A DNA stretch of 64,000 nt from Chaetoceros tenuissimus (taxonomy: Eukaryota; Bacillariophyta; Thalassiosirophyceae; Chaetocerotales; Chaetocerotaceae), in contig BLLK01000057.1 in NCBI GenBank assembly GCA_021927905.1, forward strand, positions 62,001-126,000. Direction: 5' to 3'. The notes beneath the pieces are model-generated. The model was not told the DNA's origin and did not search any database. It was given only the letters and a program-made list of their open reading frames with translations. The translations under genes and the position numbers were made by a program. Of this stretch, positions 26,261 to 48,845 are shown in pieces. Every line of letters begins with the position of its first letter. Positions within the stretch are counted from its first letter, which is position 1.

Positions 26261-26652
26261 ATGGTCTACATATCTTCAGACGGTTCTGTAAACTCCAAGC
26301 CAAAATTCACAATCGTAGGCTTCCTAACTGGCATTCTAAGTGGGATCTATAATTTCTTTGCCCTTTTTCTCTCAACCATTACAGGTAATCCTGCTCAAAT
26401 TCAAGTGAATCAAAATAAAAGGAGTACGGGTAGTAAATTAGGTTCTGGAAATGGTGCTTTCAAGCCGAATCGTAAAAGAGGAGGGAATATTCGTCAAGTC
26501 AAGAATTTAGGTGAGTCAATCGTGTTCTTCTTGAATGTATGTTTTCTTTTTACGAACTATATATGTGTTCTTTTCATGCAAGTGATCTAATACATTATGT
26601 ATACACAGGTTGTGCACAAGGTGCTGCTGCTGGAGGCGGGTGAGGACGGTAA
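26261..26652 (+). CDS. SELENOK: Selenoprotein K (UGA read as selenocysteine)
   Basis: There are two exons, 26261-26510 and 26609-26652, with a 98-bp GT-AG intron; the codon GGT is split. The protein has 97 residues and ends Gly-Gly-Gly-Sec-Gly-Arg, where Sec95 is the TGA at 26641-26643 and the true stop is TAA at 26650. It starts MVYISSDGSV, has one membrane segment (FLTGILSGIYNFFALFLSTI) and a Gly/Arg/Lys-rich tail. These are the hallmarks of SelK, a small ER membrane protein that works with p97/VCP in ER-associated degradation and with DHHC palmitoyl transferases in animals. A conventional caller would stop the gene at the TGA or miss exon 2. A SECIS-like fold follows at 26860-26945. Confidence 0.93.
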
Positions 26653-26859: not shown

Positions 26860-26945
26860 TAGGTGAATGACGTTCATAGATGGAATTGTCCAACGTTCGG
26901 AAGTACTTGGATGAGTTATCATGAACTGAGAAATGATGTTTCATT
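26860..26945 (+). promoter_or_regulatory. Candidate SECIS element of selenoprotein K
   Basis: The quartet side ATGA is at 26867-26870. Helix II pairs GTTCAT (26872-26877) and GAT (26879-26881) with ATC and ATGAAC (26918-26926). An AA at 26884-26885 lies in the 5' bulge, and helix III pairs TCCAA (26889-26893) with TTGGA (26907-26911). The opposing TGA is at 26927-26929, immediately after helix II. The order and the 12-base gap from ATGAC to AA fit the eukaryotic SECIS pattern. It lies about 210 bases after the stop codon. The lower helix is weak by eye. Confidence 0.65.
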
Positions 26946-42074: not shown

Positions 42075-42575
42075 TTCTATATTTTATGAGCTATCGCTAT
42101 CTAATACATTTTTCGCTTTTCTCAGATGTGGTACTTGTGATTTCAATTGTTCTCTTCATAGCGCGCAATTTTCCAATGACTCGTCATGACGTACGCTTCC
42201 CCACCCTGTCAAGACAATTTCATGAGTACGTCATGATTGAGAATCTTCATGGTTAAGCAATAGGCTGTCTACTACTGCCTAGAAAAACTATTTGTACGCG
42301 TCATCTGTTATCACCTAAGGCAGTGCTGCTAAATCTGCCATAAAACAAAAATCGACCAAAATAGCTATCATGCGGATTTTTATCAGCACTGCCTTACCTT
42401 GAAATACTATTGCTAGTAGGCCATTTAGGCCATTAGAAGCTTTTCTTGAGGAATCACTGGATAATCGGGCAATTATCTCTTCCTCATGTGAGGCAAGCAT
42501 GCGGCTTCATGCGGCTATGCGGCTCCTGATCTGTTTCTTCTTATCATAAAATCAACCATATGTTGAATCTCAAAC
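42075..42575. other. Intergenic with a 13-bp perfect inverted repeat
   Basis: TAAGGCAGTGCTG at 42315-42327 is the exact inverse of CAGCACTGCCTTA at 42384-42396, with 56 bases between. A few bases on, TGCGGCT occurs three times at 42500-42530. No gene was seen. It may be the remains of a small inverted-repeat element. Confidence 0.6.
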
Positions 42576-47984: not shown

Positions 47985-48075
47985 TTCAATAGTGCTTTTC
48001 TCAGAGCCTCATTTACTAAATTCAAATATTAGTATCTTTCAATGAGCCTTGTCATTCCAGCATTCCAATAAATCA
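47985..48075 (-). promoter_or_regulatory. Candidate form-II SECIS element
   Basis: Read on the minus strand: ATGA at 48055-48052, then 12 bases to AA at 48039-48038. Helix II is CTCATT (48046-48041) with AATGAG (48013-48008). Helix III is TACTAA (48034-48029) with TTAGTA (48019-48014). The opposing TGA is at 48003-48001. On the 3' side helices III and II are directly joined, so the AA lies in a 5' bulge, the form-II layout. TGCT and AGCA may form the lower helix. It begins about 30-50 bases after the TAA of the upstream frame. Confidence 0.65.
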
Positions 48076-48104
48076 ACACGTAGTATAGCAAGCGATCTAC
48101 TTCT

Positions 48105-48845
48105 TTATACATCCTTTGGAATACGATCCTTCAATAGATAAAGAGCAGCAAGTACAAAACTAGCCGCACTCAATTTAGCACAAAACTCAGTTGGCAAAAG
48201 AGCATATCCTGTAGCAATCAAGGCAGCATCCCGTCCCGAGTTCAAATTCATAGCATTTGTCTTTTCCAAAAAGGCCCTAGCAAGTGATTCATCTTCAATA
48301 GCACGTATTCCAGTACCATCGACATCCCACTTGCCATCTTGGGCTATATTTCATAATCCCTCTTGTCCCGATTTGGTATACCCCACTGCAAAGAACAATG
48401 GAAGGACAATGAGAAATCTCGAGAGTGGATCTTGTAAAAAAAGTCCTGCAAAAATAGCATAGGCTACTGAAATTTTATAAGAAATATTTCCAGCATAGAT
48501 TCTTCGATCACGTTCCTCTTGATTTATATTTACCATGTCTGCAGAAGCCTTCTGACGCAGTTTCATTTGTTCTTCAGTCGATGGATAATCTTTTGGATCC
48601 AGATTTTTGGCCGGTCCATAGAAGGTGGTAGTGCCTTCTTTGAATCCAAGTACTTGAAGAAACGGTTGCATGAAAAAGAACTTTCCATCATTTACAAATT
48701 CTTTACTTGCTGCGAGTGAGGTTGATGTTCTTTGAAAAGAAGGAGTAGGTGCTCTACTTTGTGTCAATGGTTGTAAACTTGTTTGAAAAGCTGTCGAGTT
48801 TGCAGTCACATAAAGTAGGACGAAACTTATCGATTGAAACTTCAT
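48105..48845 (-). CDS. Plastid membrane protein with in-frame TGA: candidate new selenoprotein
   Basis: The frame begins at MKFQSISFVLLYVTANSTAF (48845), a signal peptide with Phe at the presumed cleavage site and a Ser/Thr-rich stretch, the diatom plastid address. It continues with KEFVNDGKFFFMQPFLQVLG and two hydrophobic segments (about residues 127-162). Residue 165 is a TGA at 48353-48351 (EGL-TGA-NIAQDGKWDVDG). After it the same frame stays open for 81 codons of protein-like sequence, including a third hydrophobic segment, to a TAA at 48107-48105. Total 246 residues. No other lesion is present, and a SECIS-like fold lies just downstream. I infer Sec at 165; a simple nonsense mutation is the alternative. 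Family and function were not recognised. Confidence 0.68.

Follow-up and report, generated by a model that had tools for sequence, protein, structure and literature searches.

On the minus strand of the 64,000-nt stretch of Chaetoceros tenuissimus DNA analysed here (the window), a frame of 246 codons (48845-48108) is interrupted by a lone stop, a TGA at codon 165 (48353-48351), beyond which 81 further codons lead to a TAA (48107-48105). The question raised by this locus is whether the TGA ends a protein or is read as selenocysteine. A sequence-only reading had argued for selenocysteine from the otherwise clean frame, the 81 codons and third hydrophobic segment that follow the TGA, a SECIS-like fold downstream, and a SelK gene nearby. 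Its account of the frame is borne out: there is one stop in 246 codons, and the 81-codon part ends in TAA. The range that it assigned to the locus, 47985-48845, does contain both the gene and the SECIS, but coding ends at 48105 and the SECIS is a separate element at about 47992-48064. We conclude that this locus is very probably a eukaryotic selenoprotein gene in which the TGA at codon 165 is read as selenocysteine.

Table 1. Features of the candidate gene and of the SelK gene, in window coordinates.
Feature	Position	Strand	Basis
Coding frame, TGA as codon 165	48108-48845	-	translation
Signal-peptide-like residues 1-19, ending ...NSTA before F20 (ASAFAP-like)	48789-48845	-	by eye
Transit-peptide-like residues 20-47; F at +1, S/T/P-rich, no acidic residue	48705-48788	-	by eye
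Hydrophobic segment 1, about residues 118-139	48429-48494	-	hydropathy
Hydrophobic segment 2, about residues 140-158, directly ahead of the Sec codon	48372-48428	-	hydropathy
In-frame TGA, proposed selenocysteine 165	48351-48353	-	translation; also present in decayed copy
Hydrophobic segment 3, about residues 220-238, past the TGA	48132-48188	-	mean Kyte-Doolittle 1.58
Cys222, the frame's only cysteine codon	48180-48182	-	translation
TAA, proposed true stop	48105-48107	-	sequence
SECIS: short helix I, core, helix II, 5' bulge with AA, helix III	47992-48064	-	folding, log-odds score
SECIS 5' core AATGAC	48051-48056	-	sequence and fold
SECIS 3' core TGAGAA, C before it	47998-48003	-	sequence and fold
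SelK domain	26264-26491	+	Pfam match
SelK TGA	26641	+	C-terminus AAGGG-TGA-GR-TAA
SelK SECIS	26866-26932	+	CTGAGAA pattern

The openness of the frame past the TGA was compared with that of other ORFs. The window has 24 ATG-initiated ORFs of 100 codons or more that terminate in TGA, and of these only the candidate stays open for 60 codons or more past its stop. The same test gave 1 of 19 for ORFs ending in TAA and 1 of 4 for those ending in TAG; since long extensions also follow TAA- and TAG-ended ORFs, extension length alone is unremarkable. At the local stop frequency, 81 open codons have a probability of 1.3%. Among the window's 93 open stretches with lengths of 80-149 codons, the 81-codon part has the top codon-usage score, which its +1 frame equals once stops are skipped; the codons flanking the TGA also score as coding. 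By themselves, openness and codon usage are modest evidence for coding after the TGA; judged by these two measures, the in-frame UGA has coding sequence on both sides.

A partial, inverted and decayed copy of the gene lies on the same contig, about 53 kb away (G000:C43:56602-56919; L002:1502-1819). The alignment starts 14 bases before the TGA and covers 333 columns at 89% identity. A second block, at 78%, extends into the downstream gene, and about 210 bp between the two blocks, including most of the SECIS, are missing from the copy. The copy retains the TGA, which is therefore not a base-calling error and is older than the duplication. Over 242 coding nucleotides, copy and candidate differ by 15 substitutions (7, 3 and 5 at codon positions 1, 2 and 3), of which 4 are synonymous, 10 change an amino acid and 1 creates a new stop; the copy also has a one-base deletion followed by a 14-base gap. 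These counts are close to the neutral expectation of 26% synonymous changes, 71% amino-acid changes and 3% stops. The substitutions look neutral, and the comparison does not reveal any selection on the C-terminal frame.

The same genome holds no relative of the candidate besides this copy and a 59-bp stretch (G000:C34:3239520-3239578, L004) that is 86% identical to the candidate's transit-peptide region, at a locus with nothing related to the rest of the gene nearby. A match of 28% identity at C54:1166795 had an E of 0.68. No relative was found in viral or prokaryotic contig collections, neither of which holds other algae; part of this search used six exact 8-residue patterns, the reach of which is limited to close relatives. 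A looser pattern gave at least 120 stretches and one weak tblastn match (E 0.61, L111), which was rejected as a GC-rich viral protein that shares the WDVDGTG letters used as the search pattern.

The genome carries other selenoprotein genes. Family searches placed a TGA at the expected site in SelK, SelM, SelT, GPx (L009, L010 and L011), three SelU-type proteins and MsrA (L028 and L029), in the context AAGGG-TGA-GR in SelK and G-TGA-xxC in the SelU-type proteins. The names of this genome's selenoproteins rest in part on Pfam matches. The SelK gene that had been placed about 21 kb from the candidate is indeed there, on the plus strand, with its domain, TGA and SECIS. AATGAC occurs in the 3' flank of 10 of 11 inspected loci (L027 lacks it), at 49-91 nt past the stop in nine loci and at 217 nt past the true TAA in SelK. 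Five places in the genome exceed the Rfam cut-off for tRNA-Sec, which would be a high number if all are genes, and ARAGORN classes the two of these five that were inspected as tRNA-Sec, with TCA as their anticodon. SepSecS has one match, of 380.9 bits. Machinery for selenocysteine is thus present, as judged by tRNA-Sec with a TCA anticodon and SepSecS. The tRNA-Sec matches include sites on G000:C27, on C34 (C34:1126986-1129872) and at C54:1808110, two of them lying about 2.8 kb apart on C34.

The SECIS-like arrangement proposed for the candidate's 3' flank (ATGA, 12 nt, AA, two stacked helices and a 3' TGAG, in form-II order) is present in both sequence and fold. Its core begins 52 nt past the TAA; known elements of the genome begin at 49-93 nt, and that of SelK at 217 nt. 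The candidate ends in CTGAGAA, as do SelK, SelT and one SelU, and the TGAGAA 3' core with its preceding C is also common to a Prx, a GST and the locus L030. Helix I beneath the core is short (UGCU/AGCA). In helix II, 7 of 9 positions pair, with a G-G mismatch inside and an A-C mismatch at the first position, which is paired in all 12 elements used to train the model described below. The 73-nt RNA has an MFE of -13.8 kcal/mol and a z of -2.14, with 9 of 200 shuffles folding as well, and a 91-nt version has a z of -1.65; the corresponding values for elements of the same genome are -1.50 for SelK, -1.53 for SelT and -0.23 for one SelU. SelK and SelT have stronger inner hairpins than the candidate (-10.4).

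Rfam, which includes SECIS models, gave no SECIS match for the candidate at E <= 10 and, at gathering scores, none anywhere in the window, SelK included. The negative result at the candidate is uninformative, because six other selenoprotein loci (L005, L006, L009, L017, L020 and L033) give no SECIS at E <= 10 either. A generic SECIS search that demanded AA or CC in the bulge recovered only a small share of the known elements and was abandoned in favour of the genome's own signature. Passages of an earlier report describe hundreds of false matches per genome for generic SECIS searches, with 675 strict hits for 16 genes (PMC2375036); for this reason, a genome-specific test was needed.

For this purpose, a log-odds model was built from the 5' core, the 3' core and nine helix positions of 12 training elements, with the candidate left out. 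The training elements come from genes of the same genome that have a TGA at the selenocysteine site and an AATGAC...TGAN hairpin. The set excludes the MsrA matches L027 (AATGAC absent from the 900-nt flank) and L029 (3' core ambiguous), as well as the GPx gene L011 (3' end not seen); for the GPx gene L009, the 3' core TGAA was picked by eye, and the best unconstrained folds close elsewhere. The model is biased towards the CTGAGAA ending, since that pattern was the source of three of its 12 elements; the other nine are independent of the pattern. The candidate scores 27.5, and the leave-one-out scores of the 12 range from 19.4 to 31.0. Over both strands of the window, the SelK SECIS is the only site above the candidate, at 29.7 (28.0 when left out), and the next-best site after these two scores 16.8. 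In 3 Mb of simulated Markov-1 sequence, there were no sites at 27.5 or above.

The pattern AATGACN{33,60}CTGAGAA was also searched across the 41.0-Mb genome, where it has 83 matches, compared with 56 for a reversed-pattern control. Folding was applied to the 74 distinct strings, with 9 exact repeats left unfolded, and 10 of the 74 gave a closed hairpin with an MFE of -6 or below: the candidate and nine others. Six of these nine follow selenoprotein genes (SelK, SelT, SelU, Prx, GST and, as judged by eye, L030). The remaining three have no recognisable selenoprotein gene; the hairpins of L031 and L034 sit within long open frames without a TGA, and at L035 there is no recognisable gene at the hairpin. 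The proposed SECIS thus stood up to both the genome-trained score, with its 12 elements, and the genome-wide pattern-and-fold test.

Several of these loci were described individually. Two were found through the SECIS pattern: a peroxiredoxin (Redoxin) with TPT-TGA at L032, and a GST at L033 with a TGA in its N-terminal domain (NSGV-TGA-PFAQRP). L030 (G000:C44:287900-290500) encodes a small membrane protein with the C-terminus PKSA-TGA-GPSSCA-TAA, which has no Pfam match and which we take to resemble SelS/SelK. Its hairpin is the most stable closed one in the CTGAGAA set (-17.8), and its SECIS sequence is present again on the same contig, at C44:302085-302140. At L035 (G000:C27:1524900-1527400, minus strand), a weak SECIS-like hairpin (-6.2) lies 84 nt downstream of the end of a 73-codon open stretch whose last codon before a TAG is TGA.

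A simpler rule, consisting of AATGAC, a closed hairpin of -6 or below and a 3' TGA, gives 50 hits by chance in a 4-Mb simulation (1.25e-5 per nt); 13 of the 50 are as stable as the candidate, and one of them also ends in TGAGAA. This rule recovers 8 of 10 known elements, missing L009 and L029, and gives 12 hits in 26 other loci, 8 of which are known elements. Its four hits in the window are SelK, the candidate, 42177 on the plus strand (-16.6) and 19637 on the minus strand (-7.6). The latter two sites are without a known gene, and 42177 is more stable than the candidate. An AATGAC...TTGAGAA hairpin of -16.6 kcal/mol spans window positions 42175-42243 on the plus strand; it is outside the eight best log-odds sites, and no clean TGA-interrupted ORF was seen just upstream of it.

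These results bear on three other explanations of the TGA. If it were a true stop, the protein would have 164 residues, the following 81 codons would be a relic or a chance frame, and the hairpin would be unrelated. Given the probability of about 1.3% for 81 open codons, some genes across the genome must show such an extension by chance, and the window itself has one TAA-ended and one TAG-ended ORF with a long open extension. However, both the score of the hairpin and its distance are those of a real SECIS, and the extension adds a hydrophobic segment and has the best codon score of the 93 stretches, so that termination at this TGA appears very improbable. There is scarcely any credibility in reading the TGA as an assembly error or as a nonsense mutation of a gene in decay. 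In favour of this reading, the partial copy on the same contig is clearly decayed, with an extra TGA, deletions and its 15 substitutions, but the presence of the same TGA in that copy means that it is neither fresh nor a base-calling error; moreover, the frame in the window has no other lesion, and the SECIS is intact.

An intron could also remove the TGA: 38 in-frame GT-AG pairs that span 40-400 nt would allow its excision without any stop remaining. The best-scored of these (GTAAAT donor, GAG acceptor, pyrimidine share 0.73) deletes 348 nt together with both of the first membrane segments, and each of the next 11 of the best 12 of the 38 has a weaker donor or a pyrimidine share of 0.27-0.67. 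Codon scores around the TGA are those of coding sequence, and an intron would leave the SECIS match unexplained; we regard the probability of splicing around the TGA as negligible. Selenocysteine at residue 165, as the sequence-only reading proposed, is supported by the SECIS score of 27.5, the genome-wide test, tRNA-Sec (UCA) and SepSecS.

The predicted selenoprotein has features of a membrane protein with a possible plastid address. A third hydrophobic segment does follow the TGA, at residues 220-238 (mean Kyte-Doolittle 1.58). Passages of PMC4329603 give the rule for diatom plastid addresses as a signal peptide, then F, W, Y or L at +1 and a hydroxyl-rich transit peptide. Compared by eye with this rule, the N-terminus (NSTA-FQTS) resembles a bipartite plastid address. 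The product is probably a plastid membrane protein, of the envelope or the thylakoid, a location made plausible by the motif read by eye. Database searches gave no significant Pfam, NCBIfam or PDB match, and there was no significant Pfam profile match to GPx, Rdx, SelK, Sep15/SelM, AhpC-TSA_2, PMSR, GST or Redoxin. The matches to DUF874 (E 0.22) and Macro_2 (E 0.11) in Pfam and to 1r3u (E 0.86) in PDB were taken as chance, and DGKWDVDGTG was inspected by eye as a possible degenerate EF-hand, a reading that was set aside. AlphaFold, run on the single sequence without an alignment, gave an unusable model (pLDDT 45.8).

By analogy with established eukaryotic selenocysteine insertion, the candidate mRNA, in which the UGA is codon 165 and a form-II type SECIS lies 52 nt past the TAA, would be decoded with a SECIS-binding protein, eEFSec and Sec-tRNA, such that UGA is read as selenocysteine. 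Translation would then continue for 81 residues past Sec165, including the third membrane segment, and the bipartite N-terminus would direct the product to a plastid membrane, with Sec165 placed just after the second membrane segment. Because residues 165 and 222 are the only Sec/Cys positions of the product, we tentatively suggest that Sec165 would most likely have a role at the membrane surface, either as a nucleophile or in redox relay; possibly, Sec165 and Cys222 might work as a Sec-Cys pair. The more specific proposal of an undescribed family, namely a small nuclear-encoded, plastid-imported three-helix membrane selenoprotein of the photosynthetic membrane or envelope, without a thioredoxin-type fold and with a Sec165-Cys222 redox switch at the surface, is one that we consider rather unlikely.

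The candidate shares its in-frame TGA and AATGAC...TGAN 3' hairpin with SelK, SelT, SelM, SelU, GPx, MsrA, Prx and GST of the same genome. In those eight known families, the TGA lies at recognisable family sites, whereas the candidate has no significant match to an annotated family or structure. Algal MSP (membrane selenoprotein) and the "Hypo" or hypothetical selenoproteins are likewise membrane or unannotated proteins (PMC2375036, PMC7539508). MSP and hypothetical proteins 1-3 are listed in passages of PMC2375036 for Ostreococcus (MSP also for Dictyostelium) and not for Thalassiosira pseudonana, for which the same passages give 16 selenoproteins, none described as a plastid membrane protein. 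The main text of a later survey puts the number of algal selenoprotein families at 42 and that of genes in diatoms at 20-44, and presents the known algal selenium proteins as mostly redox-fold families; the words plastid, chloroplast and transmembrane are absent from that text (PMC7539508). The phrases "plastid selenoprotein" and "chloroplast selenoprotein" were not found in the literature searched, a body that lay outside subscription papers, supplements and databases. The Sec-MsrA L029 of the same genome has an N-terminus (SAAHA-FVSQSS) that is likewise plastid-address-like by eye, so this genome may have more than one plastid-addressed selenoprotein; unlike the candidate, L029 belongs to a known enzyme family (PMSR).

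The candidate is probably a new selenium protein, and its product may work in the photosynthetic compartment. Selenium stimulates, or is required for, growth in several diatoms, according to passages of PMC6254913. If the present interpretation is true, a membrane selenoprotein that is addressed to the plastid and has no known fold would tie selenium supply directly to the photosynthetic compartment. The AATGAC...CTGAGAA hairpin signature offers a simple route to more selenoproteins in such genomes where Rfam is silent.
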